A stretch of DNA of 58,215 bases, from the IMG/VR virus record IMGVR_UViG_3300005471_000017, positions 1 through 58,215 of that record; one strand, written 5' to 3'. This DNA is from a virus. The stretch's first letter is position 1. Every line of letters begins with the position of its first letter. The notes under the pieces were generated by a model. That model was not told the origin of the DNA. It did not search any database and saw nothing but the letters and a program-made list of their open reading frames with translations. Shown here piece after piece: positions 3,404 to 31,027 of this stretch. Position numbers and translations under genes: made by a program.

Positions 3404-6400
3404 CTATTTTTCGCTGGTCACGATCGTCGGGACGGCGGCGAGCGCCGTCGCAGGCCGAGGTGATTTCCCAAACAAGACAAGCCTGGGATCGGTTTTCCAC
3501 GTGCTCGGCATCGGCACTGCGACCATATCAAGGGTCTCGAAGATATGGTCAGTGTCCACCGTCGCCCCGTCGATCTTCCTTGGCAGAGGATCAAGCGTGC
3601 CGGTGTCGCTCCCGAAGAAAATTCCCCGGCAATGAGTTTTGTATAAGATGAGCGAGACCTGCGGCGGTCTCTTCACCTGACCAAGCGCCGAGCCAAGTTC
3701 CGCCGCGTAAGCCATCTTGCTGCTGACCCATCTTGCGGTATAAGGAAGTCCGGCCACGGCGTGATGCACCGGCGCGGATAACGAAATGTCGCCGCCAGTG
3801 TCAACGGTGTACCGCGTCTGAACTCCGTTCACATCCGGCGACCGGTCCACCCCCGGAATAGACCCGGTGTCGTCGCTCCACACGACCAGGGATTCCCCGA
3901 CGAGATGCGTGGCGATGTCGGTGAGATTGGCCGTTCGCCCGGTATCCGTGAAGGCCCTCGCGCTGTCCATTAGGAAGCACAGCCCGCTGTCCCCGGTGCA
4001 CTCGCTCTCCAACGCCCATTTCTCAAGATAGCGGACATGATCGGTGCCATAGGCGCGTGATGGCGGCTGGAAGTTCGCCGTCCAGCGGGCAATGCCGACC
4101 GAGAGGCGGAATTCGTCGATCCAGCCAACCCATGGCGCGTTGGACGCGTCACCGCGACGGCCGATTGTAGGCGATCCGGACGCATTCGGGATGCTAGCGC
4201 TGAAGGACGTTGAACCTTCCAGAACCCCATCGACAAACAGCAGCAAAGTGTTCCCCGAGCGAACGGCAGCCATGTGATGCCAGCCGGTATTCAGAACATC
4301 AGTGAACTGGGTCGTGCCGCTGACAACGGTGAGGTTCGTCCCATCGCTGACGAAGAACCGCAGGACATTGCTGGAAGCGCGGTCGAGAAAGAACGATGTG
4401 TTGCTCCAGGGCGTTCCTAACCCATCTGTATGACCGCAGATGTCCGCGTCGGAACCGCCGGCTTTATTGCACCTAACCCAGAGGTCGATCGTGAAATCGC
4501 CGCTGCCGAGTGCGAAATCCGCGTGATCCGGGGTCGAGACCCAATCTCCAGTACCATCAAACAGCCCGGATGCGCCGCCAAACTTGCTCTGCGCCGTGTC
4601 GATCTGCGCATTTCCGGCCGCTGTCCAGGTACGAGCCGAGCCGCCTGCATTGACATCGGTGAAGGTCGTCGCAGCGTCGATGCCGTCGAAGTGCAGCAGC
4701 ACCTTGGTGTAACTGTCATTGCCCAGTGCGATGGTGCGGCGGATGTGGTAGAAAACCGCGTCTTCATTCGCGCCCGGCAGCACCGCGACGCGCTCGACGG
4801 CGGCCTCGGTGCCGGAATCACCTTCCCACATGGTCCAGCAGATGACTTCCTCGCCGGGCTCGTAGGTCAGAATGGCGACCCGGCCGTCTGCCAGAACGCA
4901 GTGGATGCGCGTGTCTGGCTGTCGCTGCACCGCGATCGACACCACGCCGGCCGCCAGCAGGTCCGGCACCAGCAGCGTCAGTTCGAACCCCTCGTAATCC
5001 CCAAAGGTCGCCCCCTGGCTGGACGGCCCGATCATGAACACGCGCTGCCCCGAGCGTTGTACCATGATGGCGCGGGCATCCAGATGCACGGCGCGCAGGT
5101 TGGCCGAGCCCTGCGTGGAGAATGCGCGGGCATTGGAATTGGTCGGCGTGACCGGTTCGTCCAGCGACGAGGAAGTCAGGGCGAGTTCCGCGCCGGCCGT
5201 CCCGATGATCATACGCAGCTTGCTGATCAGGTAGCGGATCGCATCGACCGGGCCCGAGCCGAGTGTGCGAATGATCGGACCGGCATCGCCCTCCGTAGTG
5301 TCGTCGAAGTTCTCGTAGTCGTCGGAGACGGAGAGGAACAAGCTGCCGCCGCTCGCATGGGCCAGACGCCCGCCATGCAGCGATACCGCCGTCGGGAAGC
5401 GCCTGGCGGCTGACCAGTAGCCCTGCTGCCAGTTGTCGGACGGCCCGGTGTCGGAGAAGCGTGACAGCACCTCGATGCCGACGGAGGTGTTGGAATTGTA
5501 ATCGGTGATGCGCGCGATGCCGGTGACGCCGCCGCCGCCATAGGTGGCATCCACGACAGCCACGCCAGAGGTGTAGCCGTTGCTGCCGGTTCCGGTGTCG
5601 GCAATTCGAGCGCGATACCAGACGGCCAGATTGTCGTCCTGATCGTCGATGGTCTTGGTAAACGTGCCTGTGTCAGAGGGGCTGATGAAGGATGTCGGCA
5701 CCGGCTTGAAGCCGATATCTTCGCCATCGATGGAACGCTCAATGGTGATCCGGCCCGCCCAGGCACCGGATACGGAGAACACAATGCGCCGCTCGCTGTT
5801 GGCGTCCGGCGTTCCGGTGTCCGAAATCCCGGTTACTTTGATCGGATCAGTATGCGCGCCGGCAGCGCCAAGCCGCCATTGCCCGCTCTGACCATCATGG
5901 AAAATGCGGATCAGCGCGCCCACATGATCGGACGTGAAGAATGGAACGTCGGATTCGAGCGTGGTGTTGCCGAAGAAGTGGCTCACCATCATCTTTGCGG
6001 AGGACGATGCCGCTGGCAGAAATGGCCCATTGTCGGGCGCATAATCCACGACAGACCACGACCGGCCGGTGCCGCGGCGCTCGATCTTCTGCTGCCTCAC
6101 GCCGTCGCAGTTTGCGTAGACCACATCAGCGGACTGATCATAGCGGACATTGCCAAGATCGCTCGATTGCCAGGGCGAGGCGACCTCCACCGTGCCGCTG
6201 TCGCCGATGGAGAGCACAGAGACGATCCGGTCCACCAGCGCATCGGATTGCAAGGTGATCCAGAAATTGCCGACCGGCGTCAGGGCAAGATTGTGATAGC
6301 CGGTGCCGAGCGCGGTCTCGGAGATGTAATCATCAGCCCCGTTGGTCGATCCGACGCGCAGCGTAACTGGTCCCCGTTCCACCGTGATGGCCAGCGAATG

Positions 6401-7447
6401 CTCCGTGCCGGTGTCGCTGATCATCACGCGTTTCACGGCCTTGGCGCGGGAACCGATCGCCGTCGAGTTGAGAATTCGCCGACCGCCCTGCAGCTTGACC
6501 TGCTGTGCCGCGGCGGCGGTGAACATCTCAATTTCGTTGATGATCAGTTCGCCAGATGCATCGCCGGCGCCGGTATCGACAGCGGTGAAAAACAGCCGCC
6601 AATGGCGCCGCGCCTCAATCGTGCCGGTATCAGCCGCGGGAAGTTCATAGCTGCGCTTTTCCGAGATGGCCCAATCCTGCTGGGCGCTGCGCTGATCCTC
6701 CAGCGTCCATTTGCCGGTGTCAGTGGCAAATGTCCCGGTGTCGAAATTTCCCGTGATCAAGCGCCAACTCTTCGGGGCGTTGTCGAGCCTGCTCCCGGAG
6801 GTATCGACGCGGATGGAATAGGATGTGATTGCGCGCCTGGCACCAGTGTCACCCCCGCCAGTGTCGAAATTGACATTCCACCAGCTCGGCAAGGTTCCGC
6901 CTTCAAACGAGCCAGTGTCTATCCACCGCGTGACAATGTTGTCATCAGCCGCCAGCCACCCGTACCCACCGTTTGCGATGCCAGCAACGTTCTCGGATGA
7001 TACCGTGATCTTCACGCCATTGGTGGTCTGACCCGTCATTGTCGGGATGACATCGACCGCCGCCGTGGCGAACGCGCCGCCGGTGGAGGCGTTCGACCAG
7101 CCCGTGTCGGTAATGCTGACCGTGGTGTCGACCGGCGGGCGCTCCAGCAGTTCCAGCGCGTGCGCGTCATCTCCCAGCCAGACGCGCATTTTCTCATGCG
7201 TCAGTTCGAGGAGGGCGACGTCGTCGGTGGAGGCGACAAATTCGATCCATTCGGCACCGGTGTCGTTGAGTGATGAGCCGAAATATTTCGTGCCGGGGCG
7301 GATCGACATACTTCCCTGGGTCGAGGCGATCCAGTTCGTCATGACCTCGGCGGACAAGCGCGTGCGGTCTAGATCGACACGCGCGAGCGCCTTGGGCGAC
7401 AACAATCCCCGATTGAAACTAACGAATGGTACGTTCTGGCGGGCCAA
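3404..7447 (-). CDS. Large tail/stabilisation protein with LamG domain and D-T/S-G repeats, 1347 aa
   Basis: The N-terminus (FNRGLLSPKA, then IRPGTKYFG) is typical of podovirus tail or stabilisation proteins that follow the tail-tube gene. A discoidin-like beta region lies at about 150-300. A concanavalin/LamG-type domain lies at about 900-1130 (SGDFTIDLWVR, then WHHMAAVRSGNTLLLFVDG), a likely surface-binding module inserted in the loop region. The C-terminal 200 residues return to the family core (VGLPYTA-like segment; PRPATALAAV near the end). I count 18 D-T-G and 3 D-S-G tripeptides, none inside the LamG domain or the stretch before it. Codons vary between copies. The start is the only ATG near the upstream stop, 6 bp away. 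Confidence 0.85.
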   Translation of the reverse strand: MARQNVPFVSFNRGLLSPKALARVDLDRTRLSAEVMTNWIASTQGSMSIRPGTKYFGSSLNDTGAEWIEFVASTDDVALLELTHEKMRVWLGDDAHALELLERPPVDTTVSITDTGWSNASTGGAFATAAVDVIPTMTGQTTNGVKITVSSENVAGIANGGYGWLAADDNIVTRWIDTGSFEGGTLPSWWNVNFDTGGGDTGARRAITSYSIRVDTSGSRLDNAPKSWRLITGNFDTGTFATDTGKWTLEDQRSAQQDWAISEKRSYELPAADTGTIEARRHWRLFFTAVDTGAGDASGELIINEIEMFTAAAAQQVKLQGGRRILNSTAIGSRAKAVKRVMISDTGTEHSLAITVERGPVTLRVGSTNGADDYISETALGTGYHNLALTPVGNFWITLQSDALVDRIVSVLSIGDSGTVEVASPWQSSDLGNVRYDQSADVVYANCDGVRQQKIERRGTGRSWSVVDYAPDNGPFLPAASSSAKMMVSHFFGNTTLESDVPFFTSDHVGALIRIFHDGQSGQWRLGAAGAHTDPIKVTGISDTGTPDANSERRIVFSVSGAWAGRITIERSIDGEDIGFKPVPTSFISPSDTGTFTKTIDDQDDNLAVWYRARIADTGTGSNGYTSGVAVVDATYGGGGVTGIARITDYNSNTSVGIEVLSRFSDTGPSDNWQQGYWSAARRFPTAVSLHGGRLAHASGGSLFLSVSDDYENFDDTTEGDAGPIIRTLGSGPVDAIRYLISKLRMIIGTAGAELALTSSSLDEPVTPTNSNARAFSTQGSANLRAVHLDARAIMVQRSGQRVFMIGPSSQGATFGDYEGFELTLLVPDLLAAGVVSIAVQRQPDTRIHCVLADGRVAILTYEPGEEVICWTMWEGDSGTEAAVERVAVLPGANEDAVFYHIRRTIALGNDSYTKVLLHFDGIDAATTFTDVNAGGSARTWTAAGNAQIDTAQSKFGGASGLFDGTGDWVSTPDHADFALGSGDFTIDLWVRCNKAGGSDADICGHTDGLGTPWSNTSFFLDRASSNVLRFFVSDGTNLTVVSGTTQFTDVLNTGWHHMAAVRSGNTLLLFVDGVLEGSTSFSASIPNASGSPTIGRRGDASNAPWVGWIDEFRLSVGIARWTANFQPPSRAYGTDHVRYLEKWALESECTGDSGLCFLMDSARAFTDTGRTANLTDIATHLVGESLVVWSDDTGSIPGVDRSPDVNGVQTRYTVDTGGDISLSAPVHHAVAGLPYTARWVSSKMAYAAELGSALGQVKRPPQVSLILYKTHCRGIFFGSDTGTLDPLPRKIDGATVDTDHIFETLDMVAVPMPSTWKTDPRLVLFGKSPRPATALAAVPTIVTSEK

Positions 7448-7453
7448 GGTCGA

Positions 7454-8098
7454 TCACCCTGTGAGAGAGCCGCGTGAACCGCGATCGCCGCGGCCGAGCC
7501 TTCCGCCGCGCGCCATCGTCCATGAGCCGGGGGGAGGAAATTTCGTCCCCTCGTTCATGGCGTCCTTGTTCTTGGCATTCTTGCGGGCCGCGTCGCGCTT
7601 CTTGCGGATCTCATCCCTCAGGGAAGAGTTCTGCGTGATGCGCATGCAGCACCGCTCAGCAAGCTCAAGCTCAACATAGCGCGTGAACAACGCCGTCCAC
7701 CGGCCGAGATCCAGCCCCATCCCGGTGTCATTGCTGACATATTTGACGTAGATGGGACTCCTGTCGGTAGACCAGTAGCCGACGACATCCTCGTAATCGA
7801 GGAGCGGGAACTCAAAATGATCATCCTCGGAGAGGAATATCGTGTTCACCCAGTCGGACGGCTTGGCGAAGACCTTCGAATATCCGAAGGCGACATTTGC
7901 GGAAACGCCCGTGTCCGCATCTGCCCGGATGGTTTCCGTGGCAAAATTCCATGAGGCTTCCGCGAGGCAATCCGCGACCGTGCGGTCCCAGCGCTGTTTG
8001 AGAGTGCGGGCAGCCTCTACGGCTTCCCCGGTGTCCTCAATCGGCCCGTTACCGAGTTCGGCCAGAGATTCGTTGAAGACGCTGAGTTTGGTCGCCAT
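7454..8098 (-). CDS. Tail tubular protein A-like (head-tail adaptor), 214 aa
   Basis: Length and pattern match the T7 gp11-type tail tube family: LSVFNESLAELG at the start, WDRTVADCLAEASWNFA near residue 40, FGYSKVFAKPSDWV near 80, and RYVELELAERCCMRIT near 145. A basic Gly/Arg-rich tail (RGGRLGRGDRGSRGS) ends the protein. It would form the ring between portal and distal tail. It carries three D-T-G tripeptides. The next gene starts 6 bp downstream, so the two are probably co-translated. Confidence 0.85.
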   Translation of the reverse strand: MATKLSVFNESLAELGNGPIEDTGEAVEAARTLKQRWDRTVADCLAEASWNFATETIRADADTGVSANVAFGYSKVFAKPSDWVNTIFLSEDDHFEFPLLDYEDVVGYWSTDRSPIYVKYVSNDTGMGLDLGRWTALFTRYVELELAERCCMRITQNSSLRDEIRKKRDAARKNAKNKDAMNEGTKFPPPGSWTMARGGRLGRGDRGSRGSLTG

Positions 8099-8666: not shown

Positions 8667-8954
8667 CTAGCCGGTATCGCCGAGCACGGTCTGCGGACCG
8701 ACAGTGCCCTGAGTGGCACCCGTATCCTGGACCGAAGCGAACGCCGCGCCCCACACCATGTGGTTGGTGTAGCCGTTATTGGCGGAGATGAAGATGAAAT
8801 CTCCGGTGTCCACACCCATCAGCGAGGCGTCGGTGAAGAACCCGGCCACATCGGCCACATCGGCGATGGCGCCGGTGTCGTGATAGTGCCACGTCTTCCC
8901 GCCGGTGATGCCCTGGGCGATGAGCTTCAGGCGATCTTTGCTATAGGACGTCAT
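8667..8954 (-). CDS. Small structural protein, 95 aa, ending in D-T-G
   Basis: A strong ribosome site (AAGGAGGG) precedes the ATG at 8954. The protein is beta-rich: LIAQGITGGKTWHYHDTG at the N-terminus, then GDFIFISANNG, then VQDTGATQG. This is the layout of small podovirus head or decoration proteins found next to the capsid gene. Four of its 95 residue positions begin D-T-G, and the last three residues are D-T-G. It lies 13 bp after the capsid stop. Confidence 0.75.
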   Translation of the reverse strand: MTSYSKDRLKLIAQGITGGKTWHYHDTGAIADVADVAGFFTDASLMGVDTGDFIFISANNGYTNHMVWGAAFASVQDTGATQGTVGPQTVLGDTG

Positions 8955-13324: not shown

Positions 13325-14776
13325 CTAGCGGCCTCGGCCGCGTTTGGCGGCCGCGTAACCCAATATGACCCTCGGCGGCTGGCGCGCGGCCCGCGCCTCG
13401 CGCGTCATCGCCGGAAACAGCGCCGTCAGGCCCCAGACCATGGCATCCGCCCGATCCGGCGAGCGGTCGCCACGCCAGCCGCCCGTCGTCATGGCGCAGA
13501 GCTGATACTCAAGCTCCTGAAACCGGCCTACCAGCGAGACCTTGCCCTGCTGGAACAGTGCCGCGATCGGTTCAGCCCGGACATTCTTGCCCCGCGAAGC
13601 GTGCATTTCCCGGAACGGCAGCGGCAGCCCATCCGCGGTCGATGCGGTGCGCATCACCTCGCGCACCATCGCGCCGCCGTAATTGGTCTCCGCGACCACC
13701 GCATCGGCGCGGTGCCGTTCGAAGGCCGACGCGACGATGGTCTTCCAGCGGTCGGGCCCGAACCGGCCGGAGAGATCCTCCAGCACATAGCCGCGGCCGT
13801 CGTCGCCGAGGCCGACCACGATGATGCCCACCTCATCGGAGCGCAGGTCCTCGGGCCCAGAGCAGCCCGACGGATCGACCGCGATCATGATGCGCTGCAT
13901 CTCGGGCGGGTCTTTGTCGAGCAGACGCCCGTTGTCGAGCATCTCGGGCGTCCACAGCGCGGTGTCGTCATCGTCGCTGAACACACCAAGCAGGAAGCGC
14001 CGCCGCTTGCGCTCGTCGAGATTCTCAAGCTCTTCGAGGTAGCCCGCCTTCAGATTGGCCGCGTTGTGCGTCGGGTTGATCTGAAGGGCGGCGAAGTTGC
14101 CCGGCGCCGTCAGCGGCTGATGGCGAGCCGGGTCGATCTTGTCGATGAAGAACAGGTGCGTCCAATGCCGCTTCGAGGGCGGGTTGCAGTCGTAGAACAT
14201 CTTGTTCGCCAGGCCCGGCACGTTCTGCGCCAGGCGGGTGACGGCGATGTCGCGCGACGAAAGCGGGATCTGCGAACACTCGTTCAGGTACAGGGTCGCA
14301 TATTCCTGGCCGAGGATCTTCTCGGTGCGCTCCTTCTCGTCCAGACCGCCGAACCAGATCTCCGAGCCATTCGGCAGGATGAAGCGCCAAAGCTGCTTAT
14401 CGAGTTTGCTGCCGGCCCGCGCGCCGGGGAAGCAGATCTCCATCACCTTCGGCAGCGTGTCCATGGCGATGGACGCGATGACATGGTTGAACCTGAAGCG
14501 CAGGATTGCGTGACGGCTCGGTGCCTTCAGCGCTCGCGCCACGATCTTGCGCACGATCAGGAACGTCTTGCCGGACCGAGAGCCTCCGAAGAGCATGCAA
14601 TGCGTGGCCTCGGAGTCCAGCATCTCCTCGGCTTCGATCTGGCGTTCCGTCAGTTCGCAGGTCGCGCCGATCCGCTCTCTGACGCCCGGCATGTTGGCCA
14701 GGGCTTTGCGTTTGCCGGGGGGCAGCGCGCCGATGAGACGCTCCAGCGCGTCCAGATCAGCCGTTGTGGCCGTCAT
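13325..14776 (-). CDS. terL: Terminase large subunit (packaging ATPase-nuclease), 483 aa
   Basis: The N-terminal ATPase has a Walker A FGGSRSGKT near residue 62 and a Walker B-like ATLYLNECSQ near 165. A C-terminal RNase H-like nuclease follows, with an acidic VDPSG near 285 and DAMVWGL near 445. The enzyme cuts concatemeric DNA and drives it through the portal. The length is normal for the family. It has no D-T-G tripeptide. The small subunit candidate is far away at 31.3-31.9 kb, with the cargo block inserted between them. The start overlaps the ParB-like gene by 20 bases. Confidence 0.95.
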   Translation of the reverse strand: MTATTADLDALERLIGALPPGKRKALANMPGVRERIGATCELTERQIEAEEMLDSEATHCMLFGGSRSGKTFLIVRKIVARALKAPSRHAILRFRFNHVIASIAMDTLPKVMEICFPGARAGSKLDKQLWRFILPNGSEIWFGGLDEKERTEKILGQEYATLYLNECSQIPLSSRDIAVTRLAQNVPGLANKMFYDCNPPSKRHWTHLFFIDKIDPARHQPLTAPGNFAALQINPTHNAANLKAGYLEELENLDERKRRRFLLGVFSDDDDTALWTPEMLDNGRLLDKDPPEMQRIMIAVDPSGCSGPEDLRSDEVGIIVVGLGDDGRGYVLEDLSGRFGPDRWKTIVASAFERHRADAVVAETNYGGAMVREVMRTASTADGLPLPFREMHASRGKNVRAEPIAALFQQGKVSLVGRFQELEYQLCAMTTGGWRGDRSPDRADAMVWGLTALFPAMTREARAARQPPRVILGYAAAKRGRGR

Positions 14777-15176
14777 TCAGCGCTTTCCAGTCCTGGCAGA
14801 GCCGCGCCAGATCATCATGTGACATGCCGTTCTGGACGAACCACTCGTAATTCCACGAGGGTGCCCAGGCTCGCCGCGCCTCCCGTCTCACCGTGATCTC
14901 GTCCGTGCCCAGCGCCAGCGCACAGGCGACCCGGTGACTGCCGTCCAGCAGCTCCCCGTTGGGATCGATCGGCACCGCTCCCTCTGGGAGGAATCCGCGA
15001 CAGGCCATAGAGGCGCATAGGGAGGCCGCTGAGGCCACGTAGTCGTCGAGGCTCCGTTTCCATCGGTCAGTCGTCAAGCCAGCCTGTATGCGCGCACCTG
15101 AGCGCTTGGCGATGTGCCAGCGGTAGATACGAACGGCGTCAGGGTCATTGCCTCCACCAGGGAGGAGGTGCAGCAT
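14757..15176 (-). CDS. ParB/sulfiredoxin-fold-like protein, 139 aa
   Basis: A LLDGSHRVACALALGTDEI motif near residue 85 resembles the conserved strand-helix of ParB-like N-terminal domains (D-G-x-H-R-x-x-A). The start at 15176 gives MLHLLPGGGN and overlaps the end of the kinase gene by 32 bases; a longer frame to 15314 is possible. First gene before the terminase, at the edge of the cargo block. Whether it binds DNA or nucleotide is unknown. Confidence 0.6.
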   Translation of the reverse strand: MLHLLPGGGNDPDAVRIYRWHIAKRSGARIQAGLTTDRWKRSLDDYVASAASLCASMACRGFLPEGAVPIDPNGELLDGSHRVACALALGTDEITVRREARRAWAPSWNYEWFVQNGMSHDDLARLCQDWKALNDGHNG

Positions 15177-15822
15177 AAGCCGCCACTTGATCGCAATGTC
15201 CCATCTGCGCGACGTCACAAGGCTCCTGGTCGGCAAACGCAATAAGCTGGGCGCGGGCGTCGTCGATGGGTTGATGCTGGACGTCGATGTCCATGACTGG
15301 AACGCCTCGTTCACGAAGCACCTCTTTGGCGAGAGCGATGGACGGAAGCATCAGTGGCACCTGCGCACTGCGATTTTCGTGCGCCGTGGCCGGGTTCTTC
15401 TCCCGGTCGCGGTTGCGCTGGAGGATGGTCTCTACATCCGCCTCAAGGAACGCCACGCCGACGCTGACCGGCGTCACCCACAGGGCACGACGGATCAGAT
15501 TGATGTCGCCGCCCATGTCCTGGATGCGCCAGCCGAAGCCGAGCACGCGCTGAACGAAGCCGGTCTGCACGAAAGTGCGATCATCCTGCATGCGAGTGAC
15601 CGCCGCCATCTTCTTGGCGGAGCGGTCGTTCATGCGCAGGACAGCCTGGAAACTGGCGTGGTCCTTGACCAAGGTGCAGAGCGTGGTGATCTCGTCGAGG
15701 AACAGGCGCCATGATGCCGGGGGCGGCAGCCCGTCCCAAACGATGCTCTTATCCCCGAAGATCGGATAACAGAGGCTGGACTTTCCAGCGCCAGGCGGGC
15801 CGGATACGTCGCAAAATCTCAT
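15145..15822 (-). CDS. P-loop kinase-like protein, 225 aa
   Basis: A Walker A GPPGAGKSS lies at residues 8-16, directly after a first beta strand, as in small-molecule and nucleotide kinases. Later features are FLEADVETILQRNRDREKN near 125, which reads like a lid with paired Arg residues, and VPVMDIDVQ near 175. The substrate is unknown. It overlaps the FkbM methyltransferase start (ATGA), so it belongs to the cargo operon of sugar-modifying enzymes. An adenylate- or guanylate-kinase-like role is only one option. Confidence 0.7.
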   Translation of the reverse strand: MRFCDVSGPPGAGKSSLCYPIFGDKSIVWDGLPPPASWRLFLDEITTLCTLVKDHASFQAVLRMNDRSAKKMAAVTRMQDDRTFVQTGFVQRVLGFGWRIQDMGGDINLIRRALWVTPVSVGVAFLEADVETILQRNRDREKNPATAHENRSAQVPLMLPSIALAKEVLRERGVPVMDIDVQHQPIDDARAQLIAFADQEPCDVAQMGHCDQVAAYAAPPPWWRQ

Positions 15823-17362: not shown

Positions 17363-17364
17363 CT

Positions 17365-18203: not shown

Positions 18204-18688
18204 GCGGCTTCTTTCCTTGCCTCGATTTTCTGCGATGTCCTTCTCGCCCAAAGCAGATCGGACGCGCCATGTGGACGATCTTCCTTCTTGGGCCTGAAAC
18301 GTTCCCGCTCGATGATCAGCGCCGACGTCAACGCCTTCCAGTGTTCAGGCGCTAATGCCCCAGCCATGGCCCAACTCGGAACAATCTCCATGCGGATTTC
18401 GTCCATCTCGGCGCAATACCACCTGACAAACAACTTCGGGCTCAATGGTGGGCGCACGCCATCACGCTTTTGGCGGCGCGTCCGCCCGTCGCGCCAATAG
18501 ATCAGCACTAGCGGGTCGGCATGGAAGACGATGGGCTGATGCAAAGGCTCTTGGAAGCCATTCCCTTCGCAAGGGAAGTCTTCAAAACCGGCAAGATCAG
18601 GCCCAGCCCAATGCGGCTTCCAACTGTTCGGCTCTTTACCAAAAACCTGCATGAAGCGTTTCACGGGAATGCGCTTTACCTTGATCAC
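18200..18688 (-). CDS. Hypothetical protein in the cargo block, 162 aa
   Basis: A GTG at 18688 overlaps the stop of the glycosyltransferase-like gene (GTGA), giving VIKVKRIPVKRF at the start; a GTG 21 bases upstream is also open. The protein is rich in Trp and Arg, with LIYWRDGRTRRQKRDGVRPP in the middle and a basic C-terminus. I do not recognise it. Coupling on both sides ties it to the sugar and methyl transfer genes. Confidence 0.55.
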   Translation of the reverse strand: MIKVKRIPVKRFMQVFGKEPNSWKPHWAGPDLAGFEDFPCEGNGFQEPLHQPIVFHADPLVLIYWRDGRTRRQKRDGVRPPLSPKLFVRWYCAEMDEIRMEIVPSWAMAGALAPEHWKALTSALIIERERFRPKKEDRPHGASDLLWARRTSQKIEARKEAA

Positions 18689-19425
18689 CGCCAGAAATCC
18701 CTGATCCACGGGTGCCTCGCCTGCATCTCGGGCTGACTCGGGCTACGATCCCCTGGGCAGAAAACGATCCGCGCGTTCGCCGGCAACTCTGACTGCACGC
18801 CCTCACCCATCTTGCCGTTGACGAGGCGGCCGGCGCCGTAGACACCGTGACTTTCGTCCCAAGTTGCGACATCCCACTCCCACCCCGGCTCGGGATAGTT
18901 CAAGTTCATCCGCTCGGAGATCCAGGCTTGCTCGCCGCCGCCGAACCTGCGATTGAGCCATCCAGGGGTCCGCTTGGGGTCGAACTCGCGCCAGAGGTGC
19001 GCGGTCTCGCCGACGGTGAAGAGTTGCATCGAGCCCTGTATGAAGCCGCGCTTGCCGCCGACGGCGAAGTTCGGATTGAGCCAGAACCGGTAAGGATCGC
19101 CGGTGATCAGTGGATCCAGATTGCCAGTCACGACACAGTCGATATCCATGAGGAGTACGCGATCGCCTTCTTTGGCTACCCCTCCAATCTTGTGAGCCTG
19201 CAATTTTACAAGGCATGTTCCTGGAACATGCTTCTCCAAATCCAACGGAATAGTCGAAATGAAGTCGCCGACGAGGTCGGGGCGATGAGTCACGCACAGT
19301 CGATGGTGGGGCACGGTGACATTCCTCGCCACCATGCTGTCCCAAACGCGCACGTCTTCCGGAGATATCTGATATGACCGCCTTCTAGCTGAATCCACCC
19401 AGAAGAAACAAATGATATGGATCAT
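18685..19425 (-). CDS. Glycosyltransferase-like protein B (paralogue of A), 246 aa
   Basis: The fold markers match protein A at 16.6 kb: HHRLCVTHRPDL near residue 40, KHVPGTCLV near 67, and a D-x-D in LLMDIDCVVTGNLDP near 92-106. An acceptor-like GGEQAWISERM segment lies near 165, and a closing LPANARIVFCPGDRSP leads to a Trp-rich end. Two copies of one enzyme in a single operon suggest successive sugar additions or divergent specificities. The start ATG at 19425 overlaps the stop of the HNH-like gene by 4 bases. Confidence 0.7.
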   Translation of the reverse strand: MIHIICFFWVDSARRRSYQISPEDVRVWDSMVARNVTVPHHRLCVTHRPDLVGDFISTIPLDLEKHVPGTCLVKLQAHKIGGVAKEGDRVLLMDIDCVVTGNLDPLITGDPYRFWLNPNFAVGGKRGFIQGSMQLFTVGETAHLWREFDPKRTPGWLNRRFGGGEQAWISERMNLNYPEPGWEWDVATWDESHGVYGAGRLVNGKMGEGVQSELPANARIVFCPGDRSPSQPEMQARHPWIRDFWR

Positions 19426-20024
19426 GCCGCCAAAGCCCTATCAACGGGCCAGCCTTTTTTCAGTCTAGCCTGCGCAACCGAGTACTTCACGCCCGTTAGC
19501 TTCACGGCATCCACTAGGCATAGACTCTGCCCGCGAAATTCGACGATGACATTGCGGCTCGTGTTTCGACATTGCTCGGCTTTCGTCGCCCACCGACAGT
19601 TGCCGGGCTCGTAGCCCTTGTCGTTGTCCTTGCGGTCGATGGAATGCGTTTTACTCGGACGCTCCCCCATGTCTTTCAAGAAATTTGCAAATTCCCGCCA
19701 TCGTTCGCAAAGGGTTATGCCTTTGCCTTTGTAATATTTCGCCTTCCATTCCTCTGGATAATCAACTCGCGATATCATCGACAGCCAGGCTTTATAGGTG
19801 AGAGTGTGGTTGTTCCTGACCGCATTGCCATGCTTCGTGCTGCGAGCTATCGTGACTTCTTTCCTGAGGCAGCCACATGATCGCGTTAAGCCGCGCTTCA
19901 TTGTGTATCCCCAGATCACTTTTTCATTGCCGCAATCGCAACGGCACAGCCATTTCCTTGACGCGGCCGCAGATTGAACGACTAGACGGCCATATCGCTC
20001 TCCAATCACGCTACTTACCCCCAT
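19422..20024 (-). CDS. HNH-like homing endonuclease / AP2-type phage DNA-binding protein, 200 aa
   Basis: A zinc ribbon (CRCDCGN, then SCGCL) lies at residues 28-52. A phage-typical block follows at about 95-140: a GKGITLCERW segment, then SIDRKDNDKGYEPGNCRWAT. This block is common in free-standing phage endonucleases with an HNH-like fold. The C-terminal 45 residues resemble a NUMOD-type helix-turn-helix (LVDAVKLTGVKYSVAQARL). It probably is a selfish gene parked in the cargo block. Base composition is visibly more A/T-rich than its neighbours. It overlaps the genes on both sides. Confidence 0.7.
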   Translation of the reverse strand: MGVSSVIGERYGRLVVQSAAASRKWLCRCDCGNEKVIWGYTMKRGLTRSCGCLRKEVTIARSTKHGNAVRNNHTLTYKAWLSMISRVDYPEEWKAKYYKGKGITLCERWREFANFLKDMGERPSKTHSIDRKDNDKGYEPGNCRWATKAEQCRNTSRNVIVEFRGQSLCLVDAVKLTGVKYSVAQARLKKGWPVDRALAA

Positions 20025-20586
20025 TCATGCGTATCACTGTGCCCGTCGTGTAGCCCTCGTCGACGTAGAGGAGATGATGAACCATGCGGGCCACCTCGAT
20101 TGCGCGCAAGAAGCGCCGTTTCGGATGCTTTGCTCGACGCATCTCCAGATTTTCTACGTCGGTTCTGCGCGTTGTCATGGACGCGTCGCCGATAATCGAC
20201 GGCGCGACGCACACGAGTTGCTGCCCGGGCTTCAGCTTCTTGGTCTCGACATAGCGGTGCAGCGCGGCTTTTGCTGCTGCATATGCTCCGTCATAAGACC
20301 AGGAGAAGCCGGACTCTGAGCCGACAATGCAGATGCGGGCGTTGTCTTGCAGGCCGAAGATGTTTTCGCACAGTTTCATCGGCCAGATGCAATTCGCATG
20401 CATACTCTCGGCGATCTCTTCGGGGCTCTGCTCCAGAATATGCTTCGGCCTCAGGAGTCCTGCGCAGAGAAGATAGCGGTCTGCTGCCGGTATAACCTCG
20501 TCAATCCTGGCGATCTCCTCCCCCTCAGGGAGAAGCGTCTTCAGTTCCTGGACGATGCGGGAGTTATAGCCTGTGACGGCGAGCAT
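20011..20586 (-). CDS. Short-chain dehydrogenase/reductase-like protein, 191 aa
   Basis: A Rossmann-type N-terminus (MLAVTGYNSRIVQEL) carries a degenerate dinucleotide loop. The active-site block is intact: Ser in IVGSESGFSW near residue 90 and YAAAK near 101-105. Substrate-loop-like PSIIGDASMTT follows near 130, and the C-terminus ends with a YTTGTVIRMNGG strand typical of SDRs. It probably modifies a sugar or a small metabolite made by this operon. The ATG at 20586 is used; a TTG 12 bases upstream would overlap the upstream stop. It is shorter than the usual 250 residues because segments of the fold are trimmed. Confidence 0.75.
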   Translation of the reverse strand: MLAVTGYNSRIVQELKTLLPEGEEIARIDEVIPAADRYLLCAGLLRPKHILEQSPEEIAESMHANCIWPMKLCENIFGLQDNARICIVGSESGFSWSYDGAYAAAKAALHRYVETKKLKPGQQLVCVAPSIIGDASMTTRRTDVENLEMRRAKHPKRRFLRAIEVARMVHHLLYVDEGYTTGTVIRMNGGK

Positions 20587-20594
20587 TTGGCTAC

Positions 20595-20792
20595 TCAATC
20601 TCTCGGCAGGATACTCTGAATGCTTGCCCGGACGCAGGCATCATGGGTCCGCCGAACTTCGTCCGCTGTCGGTTTGCGGTCAAATGACATGACGGGTCTC
20701 TGGCCGCGCGAGATCAGCGCCATAGCGCCGTCTGGTATATCCTTGTCGACGACCATCTTCATGCCGAGAAAGGTCAAGCTTCTATCATGCAT
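20595..20792 (-). CDS. Hypothetical protein, 65 aa
   Basis: A small protein between FAD and SDR enzyme genes, 2 bases after the first and close to the second. Visible motifs: LTFLGMKMVVDKDIPDG at the start and SFDRKPTADEVRRTHDACV near the end. The family is unknown. Tight spacing argues for a real gene in the operon. Confidence 0.5.
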   Translation of the reverse strand: MHDRSLTFLGMKMVVDKDIPDGAMALISRGQRPVMSFDRKPTADEVRRTHDACVRASIQSILPRD

Positions 20793-20794
20793 GA

Positions 20795-21832
20795 CTACGC
20801 GGCCTCTCTCTGCTCAACCTTGAGAGAATCGCTGATTTGCATAGCGACTGTCACGCAAGTTCCGAGTTTTCCAGAGAATATTGAGCAAACTTGCTCGTCG
20901 TGACGCGTCAAAACACTCGGTCGTTTGTCTGTGGACTCTACCCCAGCCAGAATCGACCTGATAACGAAGCTCGACCCCACATGCCGAGCCTCTTCCACCC
21001 CAGGAACATACCGTGCGAGATCCTCGACGATCTCCTTCACCCGCGTATGCCGGGTTGACAGGTTGCCCATATCCAGCAGATTGGCGAGATGCTCCGGAAC
21101 CTCCGCCCGATACCCCACATTCTCAGCATGGATGCTCTTCCGCACATGCCCCAGCACATGATAGGGCGTGTCATCCAGGGGATCGAGGCAGCCGAACGGG
21201 CCGTCGATCACCACGATGGAGGTGTCGCGGAAGCGCTCCGGCAGCAGGACGACCGGCTTCTCGACCACCTGGAACTTGTATTCCTGCGTCTCGCAGCCCA
21301 GATCGGCGAGGACCTGGTTCAGCCTGGCGTAGGTCGCCACGACGATCCGGTCGAACTTGCGCAGGTGCGTGCGCGAACTGCGCCGGCAGCCGAGATGCAC
21401 GGTCACGCCAGCCTCGGCGACCTTGAGGCGGACAAGCTTCTGCAGCGTGCCGAGGTTGATGCGCGGCTCCTCCACGGTGAAGACGTTGCCGTCTTCGGAG
21501 AAGGAAAGGCCCTCGTCGTCGAGGAATTGCCGGTACTCATCCGCCGAGACGAGGCTGCCCTCGGCGGGGATGACGTATTGCTGCGTGCCGCCGTCGATAA
21601 CGGCCGGGCCGTATTCTGCCCGGAACGAGGCTTCGGCGCGGCGGCTTTCCCGGCCGGTGGCCGCAGAGCGCGGATAGTGCGCGCCGCGGTGCAGGCGCCC
21701 AAAGGTTCCGACCGATGCGCCCAGCATGATCTGGCTCTTGGCCTCGAACAGATGGACGTCGTGGCCGGCGCGGGCGGCGTGGATTGCGGCGGTGCTGCCG
21801 AATAATCCCGCCCCAATGATCGCGACCCGCAT
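20795..21832 (-). CDS. FAD-dependent oxidoreductase (DAO-like), 345 aa
   Basis: The N-terminal FAD site is VAIIGAGLFGSTAAIHAARAG with the acidic end of the second strand at VHLFEAK. The middle contains RLHRGAHYPRS near residue 48, as in DAO-type amine or hydroxy-acid oxidases. A second FAD-contacting segment, KFDRIVVATYA, lies near 160. The C-terminus includes FSGKLGTCVTVA, the usual closing FAD loop. The substrate is unknown; a sugar or amino-sugar intermediate is likely from the neighbours. The ATG at 21832 overlaps the upstream TGA (TGATG). Confidence 0.8.
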   Translation of the reverse strand: MRVAIIGAGLFGSTAAIHAARAGHDVHLFEAKSQIMLGASVGTFGRLHRGAHYPRSAATGRESRRAEASFRAEYGPAVIDGGTQQYVIPAEGSLVSADEYRQFLDDEGLSFSEDGNVFTVEEPRINLGTLQKLVRLKVAEAGVTVHLGCRRSSRTHLRKFDRIVVATYARLNQVLADLGCETQEYKFQVVEKPVVLLPERFRDTSIVVIDGPFGCLDPLDDTPYHVLGHVRKSIHAENVGYRAEVPEHLANLLDMGNLSTRHTRVKEIVEDLARYVPGVEEARHVGSSFVIRSILAGVESTDKRPSVLTRHDEQVCSIFSGKLGTCVTVAMQISDSLKVEQREAA

Positions 21833-22536
21833 CACCAGTTTCCGTCAGGACCTTCGAGCAGGCCACTCTCGGTCGCGACCGCTGTCTTGATGCCCCGCTG
21901 GCGGGCATGCCAGAGCATGACCTTCGTGCCGGTGCGGTGCTTCTCGTATTCCTGCTTGCCGCGCTGGAGGATGCCGTACAGGGCGATCTCGGGAATGCCC
22001 AGCGTCTGGCAATCGACGATGGCTTTCGCGATGATGTAGCCTATGGAAGAGCTGAATCCCTCAGGGCAGAACTCGCCGTCGCCGGTCGGAACGACGCTGC
22101 CGTTCGGGAGCTTCGTCAGCGTGCCAAACAACTGCCGTTCCGGATACGGGCGAGCACCTTTGAACAGCCCGGATTTCAGCGCGCGCGCGTCGCGCATCCA
22201 GACGAAGGGCTGGGCTGCGACCCAGTTCAGATACGCGTAGGGCCTCGACGGGTCTTCGAGAGGCGCATGAAGCTCGAAAAATTGATCGACCCTCGGAAGC
22301 GGGCCACATTCGCCGTTCATGCCATAAGGGCTGTTGTCGGGCGAACAGGCATAGATCAGCCAGCCTGGATCATTGAACGGCGCCCCCATCTTCGTCACGG
22401 GCTGACTGCCGCAGATGGCGATGCCGCGGAGTTTCACCTGAGGAACCGTCGGCGCATCAGCGCTGCCGGCGGCGTCAACAAAAGCGGCCGGCGAGGGGCT
22501 CTCACCAGCCGCGTCTTCAAGCGATTTTTCGAGCAT
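21832..22536 (-). CDS. Hypothetical Rossmann-like cargo protein, 234 aa
   Basis: After a Pro/Ala-rich 35-residue leader comes LRGIAICGSQPVTKMGAPF, then WLIYACSPDNSPYG, a strand-loop-strand opening like nucleotide-binding proteins. Further on are Trp-rich stretches, then SSSIGYIIAKAIVDCQTLGI and EIALYGILQ, which look like a second alpha/beta lobe. It resembles phage proteins of unknown role and distantly the MptE/DUF115 type of glycan-linked proteins; that assignment is weak. It forms a TGATG coupling with the FAD gene. Confidence 0.55.
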   Translation of the reverse strand: MLEKSLEDAAGESPSPAAFVDAAGSADAPTVPQVKLRGIAICGSQPVTKMGAPFNDPGWLIYACSPDNSPYGMNGECGPLPRVDQFFELHAPLEDPSRPYAYLNWVAAQPFVWMRDARALKSGLFKGARPYPERQLFGTLTKLPNGSVVPTGDGEFCPEGFSSSIGYIIAKAIVDCQTLGIPEIALYGILQRGKQEYEKHRTGTKVMLWHARQRGIKTAVATESGLLEGPDGNW

Positions 22537-22556: not shown

Positions 22557-23429
22557 TTATTCGCCCGTGTCGCGCGGGCTGCTGATGGCGACGTAGTCGA
22601 TGTCGAGCTGGGTGGCGATGCCGGTATCCTGCACCCATGCCCCAATCCACGGCGTGAGGGCGATGCCCGAGCCGACTGGAGAATTGATGGTGCCGATCTT
22701 GCGGCCGTTGACCCAAAAATGCGCGGTTCCTCCTGAGTCGGAGTTCCCACTGCGCACCTCAACTTCAAGCGCGTCGTATACGTTCGAAACTGGTGTGGCC
22801 ACTGCGGACGGGATAACCTGCTGGTCGCCGCTGTCGCCAGCGGTAGATTTCACGGCAACGCCGGTCCAAGTGGTGGATGCGCTGGCGCTGCTTGGCGAAT
22901 AGAGCAAACCGACCATATCGGCGGCCGGGCTGATCACGCCAGCGCCGGTGTCATACGCGGGAAATTCCGCGCCGCCCGTGTCGGAAAACCCGACGAACAT
23001 GTGGACGCGCCCCGCTTCGGCGACCGCAGATACGACGCTATGCTTGATCCGCGCCGACATGCGCAGGCGGCCATTCTTGCGGCCGCCCATGTCCGCCTTC
23101 CACTGCTTGAACAGGCCCTGGGTCAGCGCGATAGCGCCTTCCGACGTGGCGGGCTGCGTCTCGGAGCCGGACAGGCGGAATACGCCATTAGTGATGTTGG
23201 CGATGGCGCCGCCGGTGATGCCGGTGTCGGATTTCACGACGGCCCACTCGTCAGCGATCAGGTCGCCGAGGAAGTCGTCGAAATACGCCACGGTATCCGG
23301 ATTGCCGGGCAGAACGATCGCCGGGCGGTCCTCGCCGCCGGAAACGAAACCTGAGCGGGCGATGACCTCATCGCGCACGCCGATGCCGAGCATCCTGCGG
23401 TGGATGCCCTTGAGCATGCTCATGGACAT
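22557..23429 (-). CDS. Tail/virion-associated beta-rich protein with D-T/S-G motifs, 290 aa
   Basis: AGGAGA precedes the ATG at 23429. The protein opens with an MSMSMLKGIHRRMLGIG head, then forms a jelly-roll-like beta region: VAYFDDFLGD near 47, HFWVNGRKIGTI near 245, LDIDYVAI at the end. Similar proteins with a lectin-like fold are found beside phage tail genes. Five D-T-G and two D-S-G tripeptides occur in 290 residues, the last one two residues from the C-terminus. The role is unknown. Confidence 0.65.
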   Translation of the reverse strand: MSMSMLKGIHRRMLGIGVRDEVIARSGFVSGGEDRPAIVLPGNPDTVAYFDDFLGDLIADEWAVVKSDTGITGGAIANITNGVFRLSGSETQPATSEGAIALTQGLFKQWKADMGGRKNGRLRMSARIKHSVVSAVAEAGRVHMFVGFSDTGGAEFPAYDTGAGVISPAADMVGLLYSPSSASASTTWTGVAVKSTAGDSGDQQVIPSAVATPVSNVYDALEVEVRSGNSDSGGTAHFWVNGRKIGTINSPVGSGIALTPWIGAWVQDTGIATQLDIDYVAISSPRDTGE

Positions 23430-23453: not shown

Positions 23454-24107
23454 TTATTGCCGATTATTGAGAAACACACCCAGCGTCGGGCCATAGCACC
23501 CGAACTCCGCCTCATGCTTTGGCCCGACGGGGCCGCCTGCTTCGAGAATACCCGCATCCATCCAGGAGACGGCCTGGACGAGGCGGGGATCGTCGGAGAA
23601 GGCATGGCTCGGCAGCCGCGCTATTGCATCGGCCCGGTGCGGTGACGGGCCTCCGTGGTCCAGCCTGCGCATGTCGTGGATGAAGCCGACGAGGACATGC
23701 GGAAGCTTGAAGCACTCCCGCAAAATGCTGACTGCCGCCGCGCCCTTCGGCCCGTCGCAAAGCACCGCCGTCGCCTTACCCTCCGATGCAATGGCGAGCG
23801 CCGGCACGAGGTCATTGCCGTTGCCGTTCCAGAGACGCGCGTTGCCGAATGGTACGAGACGGTCGCGAGCGATCTGCTCATCCGGATGGTCGCGCAGTTC
23901 GACCGAATGCACCTCCACATCCGGCAGATACTTCGCCAGCATGTAGGTGCTCTGCCCGCGCGCCCGGCCGCTCTCGATGATCACCTGGATGCCGAGCCGC
24001 CGGCAGGTGTGGATGACCAGCGCCATTTCCGAATGCAAGATGCCGCGGGCTTCATAGGGCTCTGCGGCGATGGCCTGCATCTCGGCAAGCGTCAGGCGAT
24101 CAAGCAA
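23454..24107 (-). CDS. Class I SAM methyltransferase-like protein, 217 aa
   Basis: A glycine-rich motif, VIIESGRARGQSTYMLA near residue 42, is followed by VEVHSVELRDHPDE as the acidic second strand and TAVLCDGPKGAAAV near 112. This is the pattern of Methyltransf_24-type proteins. A TTG at 24107 fits the overlap with the upstream stop (TGA at 24102-24100); an ATG at 24080 is an alternative start. It forms the end of the enzyme block beside the repeat-rich tail gene. Confidence 0.65.
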   Translation of the reverse strand: MLDRLTLAEMQAIAAEPYEARGILHSEMALVIHTCRRLGIQVIIESGRARGQSTYMLAKYLPDVEVHSVELRDHPDEQIARDRLVPFGNARLWNGNGNDLVPALAIASEGKATAVLCDGPKGAAAVSILRECFKLPHVLVGFIHDMRRLDHGGPSPHRADAIARLPSHAFSDDPRLVQAVSWMDAGILEAGGPVGPKHEAEFGCYGPTLGVFLNNRQ

Positions 24108-24432
24108 GCGTCACTCGTTTCGTGGTGTTGGCCGACGGCGATGAACCGACACGCTGCGTGGCATCGACGGCCGGCGAGGCCGCAACCCCGGCAATGGCGG
24201 CGCTCACGGAATACCAAGTCCGCCCCCAGCTTCCGCCCCAGCACCGTCTCCAGAGATCCGTGACCAGGCTGGCGGGCACGGCCACGATGGCGCCGACGGT
24301 AGCGACGCGCGGTGTATTGTCCGGCGCCGCAGAGGATGACACGCGCTTTGTGGCGGACGCCTCGGCGAGTTCGGCAACCCGGGCGGTGATATCGGCCGCA
24401 GGGCTCGATGCTACCCGGCGGGTGACGCTCAC
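24100..24432 (-). CDS. Small repeat protein coupled to the tail-fibre gene, 110 aa
   Basis: The ATG overlaps the stop of the 656-residue tail protein (ATGA). Three imperfect repeats of about 18 residues are visible: T-R/K-R-V-A/S-S-S-P/A at residues 4, 28 and about 89. Between them lies a hydrophobic segment around GAIVAVPASLV and a Trp-rich WRRCWGGSWGRTWY stretch. Possibly a small membrane or tail accessory protein. There is no known family. Confidence 0.5.
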   Translation of the reverse strand: MSVTRRVASSPAADITARVAELAEASATKRVSSSAAPDNTPRVATVGAIVAVPASLVTDLWRRCWGGSWGRTWYSVSAAIAGVAASPAVDATQRVGSSPSANTTKRVTLA

Positions 24433-26399
24433 GCAGGCCTCCAGGTGTCGGCTGTACCGGTATCGCCAGTGCCCTGCACCGTGACCTGATTGACCTTGCG
24501 AATGTCGGCGAGGATTTCATTGCCGGTGTCGAAGGTCAGCCTGTCGGTCTTGGTCTGCATCGCGGTCAGCCGGCTGTTGATGCCGGTGTCGCTCTCGCCG
24601 AACGAGCCCGCCCCCGTGTGCGCCGAGCGCAGGGAGTTCCAGACCGAGTTCGAGACCTGCCCGGTGTCCACGTTCGCCGTGACCGCGACGTTGAAGGTGT
24701 TCGTCGTCTGGCCGGTGCCGGTGTCGAAGGTACCGTCGGCCTTGAGCTGCGAGCCGGTGAGCTTCAGGAGCCGGTCGGCTGCGCCCGTGTCGCCGCGGAT
24801 CGTCGTAAGGTTGACTGAGGACTGAATGCCGGTGTCGGTGTCGGCGAGAATCTTGGCCAGACGATCGTTGATGCCGGTGTCCGACGACGCGGTGATGCTG
24901 CGCGCGGCAAAGTTCCACACCGCGTTGGCGACGGCGCCGGTATCCTGCAGCGCCAAGATGGCCCGAACGCCCGTATCGTAATCCGCCAGCGTGTCGTGAA
25001 TGCCCGTGTCCAGATCGGAGATCTGCGCCCGCAGACCGGTGTCCACGTCCGCTTGGATGCGATCAAAGCGCTGTTCGATGCCCGTGTCGGCGATCGACGC
25101 CACATTGACGCCTAAGCTCAGTTCCAGGACCGCACCAAGTGCATACAGATTGGTCTGGGATAGCGAGCCGCCCATGGTGGGAAGCCCGGTATCCGCATGC
25201 TGATTCTGGTCCGCATCCCAGACCGCATTAACGAGGACACCAGTATCGACGACGGCCGAAGCGCTGACGCCCAGCCTGCCAGCATCAAGATGCGCGGCGC
25301 CGGTGTCGGCCAGTACTGCGACGAGGTTCGAATTGACATACTGGCCAAAAGTGCCAGCGGAGGTGTGCGCCGTGCGCGCGCCGTTCCAGACGGCATTGTT
25401 GACTTGGCCCGTATCGACGGAGGCCGAGACCGTCGCATCGCCGCCGGTGTCGAGCTTCTGCGTATAGCGATAGAAGCGATCGGCGCCGCCGGTGTCGCCA
25501 CGAAGCTGCGTCATGTTGACGGCAAGCCCGGCGAGATTGGTGTTCGCCGTCAGGACACGCGTTGCATTGCCCTGCCAGACCGCCTGGTTGACGACGCCCG
25601 TATCGACTACGGCGGTGCCGAGCGATCCGCCCAGATGCTCGCCGAACGTGCCGGTGTCGGTGGTGTAGCTGGAGCGGGTCTGCATCCACACCTGGTCAGC
25701 AATCCCGGTGTCGACCAGCAGTTTGCGCCCGCCGTAGCTCCAGATGGCGGCTGCGATCAATCCGGTGTCAACCGTGGCCTGCGGGACCGAGAGGTCGCCG
25801 CCGGTGTCCAGCTTCTCCAAGAAGCGGAACAGGCGCTGGCCGGCGCCTGTGTCGCCGCGCACGCGCAGAATGTCGCTGTTCTGCAGTCCCGTGTCCACAT
25901 CGGTCTGGATCTTGTCCAGCCTGTTATTGATACCCGTATCAGCAAAGCCGTTGGCGAAGGTTGCGCGCAGATAGTTCGCCGCGCCGGTGTCGCCGCCGAC
26001 CTGCACGATGTTGGCGCGGGTTTCGCCGATCTCGAATGTGCCAAGCCAGAAGCGGACCGTCCGGCTATCGACGGTAATCGAGTCAATGAAAACTTGGTAG
26101 GAAGACCCAACCGCATAGAAATTCGCGTCGTCGGCTGTGTTGAACAGTTGTATCCGAACCCTGTGCAACCCCAATCGATCACCAACTTGCCCAGTATCGC
26201 TGATCAGCGAATAGCCGCTATCTGTCGCTCTTACTGTGGCCGCACCATCTTTCAGTACTTCAATATCTGAAATAGCTAGCGTTCCGCCAATACCGATAGA
26301 GGCTCCGCTGTCATTATACGTGGAAAACGGAAATATTAAAGTGTCGCCAGGGGATGCGGCTGTTAGATTCCCTGGGTTTCTCTTGCCTAGGTACAGCAT
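24429..26399 (-). CDS. Repeat-rich tail fibre/baseplate-like protein with 29 D-T-G tripeptides, 656 aa
   Basis: The N-terminus (about 1-130) is a beta domain; the first half of it resembles phage baseplate upper proteins. Residues 135-640 consist of alternating modules: RGDTGxxxR, KLDTGGD, VDTGxxxxAVW and DTGIxxRLxxIQxDxDTG. I count 29 D-T-G and 2 D-S-G. Asp, Thr and Gly codons vary freely between copies (GAC/GAT; ACC/ACG/ACT/ACA; GGC/GGT/GGG/GGA), so the conservation is at protein level. Parallel positions without it exist (HTSAGTFG versus YTTDTGTFG). It is likely an elongated trimeric fibre; this is inferred from the repeats. The divergent HNH gene starts 21 bp away. Confidence 0.8.
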   Translation of the reverse strand: MLYLGKRNPGNLTAASPGDTLIFPFSTYNDSGASIGIGGTLAISDIEVLKDGAATVRATDSGYSLISDTGQVGDRLGLHRVRIQLFNTADDANFYAVGSSYQVFIDSITVDSRTVRFWLGTFEIGETRANIVQVGGDTGAANYLRATFANGFADTGINNRLDKIQTDVDTGLQNSDILRVRGDTGAGQRLFRFLEKLDTGGDLSVPQATVDTGLIAAAIWSYGGRKLLVDTGIADQVWMQTRSSYTTDTGTFGEHLGGSLGTAVVDTGVVNQAVWQGNATRVLTANTNLAGLAVNMTQLRGDTGGADRFYRYTQKLDTGGDATVSASVDTGQVNNAVWNGARTAHTSAGTFGQYVNSNLVAVLADTGAAHLDAGRLGVSASAVVDTGVLVNAVWDADQNQHADTGLPTMGGSLSQTNLYALGAVLELSLGVNVASIADTGIEQRFDRIQADVDTGLRAQISDLDTGIHDTLADYDTGVRAILALQDTGAVANAVWNFAARSITASSDTGINDRLAKILADTDTGIQSSVNLTTIRGDTGAADRLLKLTGSQLKADGTFDTGTGQTTNTFNVAVTANVDTGQVSNSVWNSLRSAHTGAGSFGESDTGINSRLTAMQTKTDRLTFDTGNEILADIRKVNQVTVQGTGDTGTADTWRPA

Positions 26400-27023: not shown

Positions 27024-27032
27024 CGAGCGCCC

Positions 27033-27731: not shown

Positions 27732-27734
27732 GGC

Positions 27735-27845: not shown

Positions 27846-27875
27846 TGTGGGTTCTCTTGGTTATGGGGTGGTGAA

Positions 27876-29324: not shown

Positions 29325-29379
29325 TGAGCCCGTCGTTGCTATAGCTGCCGCACCGTAATCGCCAATGCTGCGAGGGTAC

Positions 29380-30645: not shown

Positions 30646-30649
30646 TGGA

Positions 30650-31027
30650 TTAGCCGCTATATGTCCAGACGAATAACGTGCCGACAACGGCGGATCCACC
30701 TGGCGTCACTTTAACTCTCAGCCTGTCGCCGGCCGCCACGATGGGATTATACTGATCAACCCCCGTATCAAAGCCGTCTGAGGAATGGCTCGGTTGCACC
30801 GGCACATTTGTGAAGTCCGCGCCGAGGCAATCGTTGTTGTCGTAGAAGACCCAACCGTTGCCCGTATCGGCGGCGCCCTCGCTCAGCAAACTGAGTTGGA
30901 GGTCGCCTCCCGTGTCGCCCGTTATGGCATCCCACCGCATTTGTTGGACGGCGCCAGTGAAAGGCGGCCCGGTATCGGTCCAGACCCCAGAACCTGTGGA
31001 GACATCAAATCTCTGCCGTGTCAGCAT
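30650..31027 (-). CDS. Small tail protein with four D-T-G motifs, 125 aa
   Basis: The protein is a single beta domain: MLTRQRFDVSTGSGVW at the start, DLQLSLLSEG near 43, a WVFYDNNDCLGADF motif near 58, GDRLRVKVTPGG near 100 and GTLFVWTYSG at the end. Homologous small proteins recur in tail regions of alphaproteobacterial prophages. Four D-T-G tripeptides occur; some may be native to this family, which matters for the repeat question. It is followed closely by the fibre gene. Confidence 0.65.
   Translation of the reverse strand: MLTRQRFDVSTGSGVWTDTGPPFTGAVQQMRWDAITGDTGGDLQLSLLSEGAADTGNGWVFYDNNDCLGADFTNVPVQPSHSSDGFDTGVDQYNPIVAAGDRLRVKVTPGGSAVVGTLFVWTYSG

Follow-up and report, generated by a model that had tools for sequence, protein, structure and literature searches.

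The motif-rich proteins of the window

The DNA analysed here, referred to throughout as the window, is a whole virus record of 58,215 bases with a G+C content of 61.6%. An integrase-like ORF (57044-58147, + strand) and a repressor-like ORF (47487-48215, +), both recognised by eye, suggest a temperate phage; no cellular copy of this phage was found. A 371-aa ORF at 54043-55158 (+), likewise judged by eye only, resembles the TnpB type of IS200/IS605 elements, and a tandem array of a 12-base repeat (TCTGGCCCTTCA-like) occupies positions 41096-41254.

Six virion-type proteins, all encoded on the minus strand, are rich in the tripeptide D-(T/S)-G. The densest target is a 656-aa fibre- or stalk-like protein (24429..26399) with 29 DTG and 2 DSG, which the first-pass annotation had overlooked and which gave no matches when used as a search query. 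The other five are (i) a 1347-aa tail protein (PHROG 376; 3404..7447) with an inserted LamG-like domain, 18 DTG and 3 DSG, (ii) tail tubular protein A (PHROG 394; 7454..8098) with 3 DTG, (iii) a 95-aa structural protein encoded after the capsid gene (8667..8954) with 4 DTG, the last of which (8670-8678) forms its C-terminus, (iv) a 290-aa virion-type protein (22557..23429) with 5 DTG and 2 DSG, ending in an R-DTG-x tail (DTG at 22563-22571) that is missing in DTG-free homologs, and (v) a 125-aa protein at the start of the operon (30650..31027) with 4 DTG. For these five, the recount returned exactly the numbers first reported. Altogether, the six proteins contain 70 D[TS]G, as compared to 4.65 expected from residue shuffling and a maximum of 13 in 1000 shuffles, which rejects chance or composition as the cause of the count. 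The middle residue of their D-x-G tripeptides is T in 63 cases, S in 7 and another residue in 8, while the third residue of their D-T-x tripeptides (n = 72) is G in 63 and another in 9.

The segment 8968..14776 (-), encoding the capsid, scaffold, portal and large terminase, is spared and contains no DTG. The terminase, portal, scaffold, beta-helix and fibre proteins of the window have no D-(T/S)-G at all, as had been stated at first; the capsid, which had been counted with them, carries a single DSG (9103-9111).

With the capsid site counted in, the motif is encoded in the window by 24 different 9-mers. Within the six target genes, GAYACNGG is present 63 times in the reading frame and not once in the other frames or on the opposite strand, with 8 occurrences in the remainder of the window, and the Asp, Thr and Gly codons of the motif are highly variable across about 20 related contigs of 50-68% G+C. 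Since 63/63 of these words are in frame and the wobble bases vary, selection acts on the amino acids. An origin of DTG as the side effect of a repeated DNA sequence or of a mobile nine-base element could be argued for from CCGGTGTC, which is among the commonest 8-mers in the window, and from some DTGs that fall opposite gaps in the alignments of relatives; yet the words in target genes all share frame and strand, and third bases vary within as well as between genomes, so that we give this explanation hardly any credence. As the main cause of DTG, a DNA repeat is refuted by the frame and codon data.

Distribution and avoidance of the motif in related phages

Tail-tube relatives in viral contigs with 53-60% identity (L001-L007) belong to phages in which the same proteins are DTG-rich, while those at about 41% identity or less show no DTG enrichment. 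The contigs L083, L167, L151, L156 and L162 joined the DTG-rich group through an unbiased search for a pattern of three DTG codon triplets; most other matches of this search were collagen-like GDTGxxG repeats, which were set aside, the spacing of D[TS]G in the window targets being irregular instead. By scanning with the 290-aa family, we found homologs holding 4-9 D[TS]G and ending in R-DTG-x in contigs L177-L182, whereas the remaining homologs examined have 0-2 D[TS]G and are devoid of the DTG tail. Compilation over all DTG contigs gave 146 D[TS]G seen against 14.6 expected for the large tail protein, 40 against 2.3 for the tail-tube protein, 45 against 3.2 for the 95-aa family, 80 against 5.5 for the 290-aa family, 45 against 2.4 for the 125-aa family and, in eight homologs, 153 against 7.6 for the 656-aa family; the enrichment in the six target families is thus tenfold or more (about 20 contigs). 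Over all DTG contigs, the scaffold, portal, large terminase, 94-aa, 234-aa and P-loop proteins have no D[TS]G, and the capsid shows 10 against 2.4 expected, with at most one site per genome. Alignments within the clade show most DTG sites to be conserved, the others being replaced or falling opposite gaps. In some members, the tag also occurs on further virion-type proteins of this region, namely a 146-aa (PHROG virion structural protein) and a 175-aa protein of L162, a 398-aa and a 101-aa protein of L270, and a 127-aa protein of L271.

In the tail-tube tree, the DTG phages, which are uncultured tailed phages, form one clade arising by one change, with a support of 100/100. Their nearest cultured matches are distant, and no relative of the 217-aa or 234-aa protein alignments (see below) was found in cellular genome contigs or in plasmids. 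Two DTG phages have a capsid gene split by a 271-aa LAGLIDADG-like ORF, recognised by eye (L002, 1599-2414; L001, 2324-3139), with capsid pieces aligning on either side of it. Because of the single origin, motif and cargo genes are not phylogenetically independent, and their co-occurrence represents one event. Independent of this origin are the avoidance of the tag, its spread onto further proteins, and the appearance and disappearance of individual sites among clade members.

This avoidance concerns the other proteins of the DTG phages, counted without the five extra DTG-rich proteins of L162, L270 and L271. In 464 proteins predicted by script, some of them spurious calls which should dilute the effect, 6 DTG were found against 32.8 expected from composition (P = 1.2e-8), 2 of the 6 being in genes directly adjoining target genes. 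With one protein retained per homology cluster, the counts were 5 against 19.1 expected for DTG (P = 1.5e-4) and 9 against 21.6 for DSG (P = 0.002). In contrast, the DTG-free relatives show no avoidance (48 DTG against 51.4 expected).

Asp-Thr/Ser-Gly is suited to tight turns, which, together with the loop-like appearance of DTG sites in alignments and a single origin of both traits that permits coincidence, speaks for a structural or metal-binding turn in beta-rich or coiled tail parts, the sugar genes being unrelated cargo of the lineage. We regard this explanation as quite improbable, as homologs of the target proteins without DTG exist, several families bear the motif, in part as a C-terminal tail, and a turn motif would not be expected to be depleted in the remaining proteins of these phages. 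Purging makes sense for a tag that is read by an enzyme; for a structural motif, no cause for it is apparent. That D-(T/S)-G is recognised by something acting in trans is very probable, and of this we are surer than of glycosylation. More generally, further protein-modification systems, as yet unknown, could be recognised in genomes by such avoidance of a tag in non-targets.

The gene block between target genes and terminase

A constant gene block separates the terminase gene from the target genes, both in the window and in the five DTG contigs that were mapped over this region. It consists of genes for the 217-aa and 234-aa proteins, redox enzymes, 1-3 GT8-like glycosyltransferases, SAM and FkbM methyltransferases, a P-loop protein and a 185-aa protein. 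Glycosyltransferase cargo beside the motif-bearing genes had already been noticed, and is borne out, but the relation goes beyond proximity, the block being a conserved one within the structural operon.

All block genes of the window are on the minus strand. Upstream of the 290-aa gene lies that of the 217-aa methyltransferase-like protein (23454..24107; weak PF13578 match), present in 5 DTG contigs with the window counted, and directly downstream is that of the 234-aa 'AICGSxP' protein (21832..22536), a marker of the DTG phages. Genes for a FAD-dependent oxidoreductase (20795..21835; PF01266) and a short-chain dehydrogenase (20011..20598; PF13561) are exchangeable, each being present in 5 DTG contigs. 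These are followed by genes for a GT8-like glycosyltransferase with a D-x-D motif (18685..19425; PHROG 1962 'glycosyltransferase'), a class I SAM methyltransferase (17574..18251; PF13649) conserved among DTG phages according to the alignment, a second GT8-like glycosyltransferase of the same family (16640..17437), an FkbM-family methyltransferase (15819..16643; PF05050 and TIGR01444 above cut-off), a kinase-like P-loop protein (15145..15822; AAA_18 below cut-off), and a conserved 185-aa protein adjoining the terminase (14757..15314), which is ParB-like by eye only and gave no match in Pfam and PHROG searches. Mutually related HNH-type ORFs are located inside the block (19422-20024, -) and at 45429-45785 (-), with relatives in G003, G005 and L006.

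The glycosyltransferase family matches PHROG 1962 at 5e-7 and 4.5e-8, and both Asp residues of D-x-D are invariant in the alignment of its 13 members. Against PDB, the family profile matches glycogenin only at E about 0.5, so that a glycosyltransferase is supported while the GT8 class is unsettled. Exchangeable genes of the block include those for a UDP-galactopyranose mutase and a GT25 enzyme in L156, a GT2 enzyme in L151, and an NAD-epimerase together with a radical-SAM gene in G001. The P-loop and methyltransferase genes, taken alone, are not sugar genes.

No element of the block is more constant than the P-loop protein, found in 13/13 DTG contigs that span its place. The 234-aa family is present in 6/6 contigs spanning its place and missing from four short DTG contigs, none of which spans it, and a glycosyltransferase was found in 11/11 DTG contigs searched. 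Among 50 DTG-free relatives, in contrast, there were two weak matches to the 234-aa family, one weak match to the glycosyltransferase and none to the P-loop protein. The association was also tested forwards: searching with the 234-aa family and nothing else yielded the new contigs L265, L270, L271, L272, L274 and L276, all six of them DTG-rich. The weakest match, L275, carries two tandem distant paralogs (3667-5483) and shows no DTG enrichment; relatives of the GT8-like enzymes, too, exist in phages without DTG enrichment (virus S20, see below). All cargo-bearing relatives are DTG-enriched and the cargo-free ones show no enrichment, findings that, like the avoidance, favour the phage-encoded virion glycosylation with D-(T/S)-G acceptors hypothesised in the first-pass annotation; its Bacteroidetes analogy fared less well, as discussed below.

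The 234-aa protein, with a predicted Rossmann-like fold, is a candidate for the tag enzyme. A model built from 19 sequences (mean pLDDT 89) has thiamine pyrophosphokinase as its best match (prob 0.96, E 0.05, TM about 0.4; weak), whereas an earlier, poorer model (pLDDT 76.5) had as best PDB match the sialyltransferase Cst-II (prob 0.80, E 0.015; weak), the two thus disagreeing; viral structure matches are uncharacterised phage proteins. The protein has no match in Pfam, including Maf_flag10/MptE-like and CST-I, the latter being reached only at E 0.25 and in a distant paralog; its profile matched neither Cst-II nor, at a significant level, any other PDB sequence, and no sequence link to the 'sialyltransferase' of virus S20 was found. 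As PF01973 is currently named 'MptE-like' in Pfam, after a pterin diphosphokinase, the Cst-II and pyrophosphokinase matches may reflect one broad Rossmann-like group. The protein likely acts on an activated nucleotide as an enzyme, and it is plausible that it is a glycosyltransferase, though the searches do not place it in GT42 or Maf.

A putative virion glycosylation system and its counterparts

The best explanation of these data, and one that we hold to be probable, is that D-(T/S)-G serves as an acceptor tag for a phage-encoded modification, most likely O-glycosylation of Thr/Ser. The sugar-type enzymes predicted in the block (UDP-galactopyranose mutase, GT25, GT2, NAD-epimerase, FkbM) favour glycosylation. 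Alternatively, DTG could be recognised in trans without Thr receiving a sugar. The P-loop protein might, for example, phosphorylate the site, some other covalent change might be made there, or a phage or host protein might dock at DTG non-covalently; the substrates of the glycosyltransferases would in that case be others, such as host surface glycans or DNA. This would suit the P-loop gene as the most constant one of the block and the pyrophosphokinase as top match of the 234-aa model, and avoidance demonstrates recognition rather than chemistry. We nevertheless consider it rather unlikely, as glycosyltransferases, sugar-nucleotide enzymes and FkbM-type methyltransferases dominate the block, and the block is inside the structural operon, adjoining the target genes.

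Under O-glycosylation, tail-tube, tail, fibre-like and capsid-associated proteins would carry the tag where they are probably exposed, C-termini among these sites, and proteins needing to stay unmodified (terminase, portal, scaffold and replication proteins) would be kept free of it. The first sugar would be covalently attached to Thr by at least one conserved block enzyme, the 234-aa Rossmann-like protein and the GT8-like glycosyltransferases being the candidates, at a stage when the target is soluble in the cytoplasm of the host. Products of the variable redox, epimerase and methyltransferase genes would subsequently build a glycan and cap it; this glycan would vary among the phages, and might serve in shielding or adhesion of the particle. 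The fullest version of this proposal, which to us is evenly balanced between right and wrong, is a self-contained phage O-glycosylation code, in which D-(T/S)-G is written cytoplasmically and without lipid carrier by a new enzyme family, is dense on particle proteins and purged elsewhere, and receives phage-specific glycans through an exchangeable cassette. As the sequence alone yields the tag, its targets, the spared proteins and a shortlist of enzymes, what determines the choice of a phage protein for glycosylation can be tested in a laboratory host with 2-3 genes. A D-T-G glycosyltransferase that is compact and cytoplasmic would, if it exists, be a useful tool enzyme.

To our knowledge, virion glycosylation is barely known among phages, and an acceptor sequon encoded by a phage has yet to be defined, let alone one with this density and avoidance. 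General O-glycosylation in Bacteroidetes is a cellular system that acts on exported proteins at the sequon D-(S/T)-(A/I/L/V/M/T), in which Gly is not included. It resembles DTG in the Asp preceding the acceptor Thr/Ser, but the third-place Gly of DTG is outside its sequon and the carrier of DTG is a phage; no tie of the DTG phages to Bacteroidetes was found. The parallel originally drawn with Bacteroidetes D-(S/T)-x sites is therefore poor, 63/72 of the D-T-x in the targets having Gly.

Tetraselmis viridis virus S20 (NC_020840, L282; 26950-32533) carries, as do the DTG phages, a same-family glycosyltransferase gene in its structural operon, along with GT-D, 'alpha-2,3-sialyltransferase' and methyltransferase genes. 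It differs in the absence of DTG enrichment and of a P-loop relative, and in its head genes. Its block is possibly an analogous system with another acceptor; another enriched tripeptide was looked for in S20 proteins and not found.

The flagellin glycosyltransferases of the Maf type (Maf_flag10, pfam01973) O-glycosylate exposed Ser/Thr and have a Cst-II-like central domain, and the available part of their description mentions no motif dependence of the DTG kind (PMC11339370). The likeness to them lies in Cst-II, to which the first 234-aa model came closest in PDB; the difference, in the lack of a significant sequence match of that protein and in the better model pointing to thiamine pyrophosphokinase.

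Closest in kind are the mycobacteriophages Che8, Rita and their relatives, in which phage glycosyltransferases are proposed to modify the phages' own capsid and tail-tube proteins (PMC11256854, PMC12619734, citing Freeman et al. 2023), with glycans reported at the C-termini of capsid and tail tube subunits (PMC12619734). The DTG phages likewise link glycosyltransferase genes to virion genes and have C-terminal sites. Unlike in the mycobacteriophages, where the capsid itself is modified, their capsid is spared, as judged by the motif only. Furthermore, these sources (PMC11256854, PMC12619734) give no short acceptor motif, whereas the DTG phages have a strict tripeptide on at least six other families, at high density and avoided elsewhere. 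Virion glycosylation as such is thus known already from mycobacteriophages (PMC11256854, PMC12619734); what is new here, as far as known, is a phage-encoded tripeptide sequon that is both dense and avoided.
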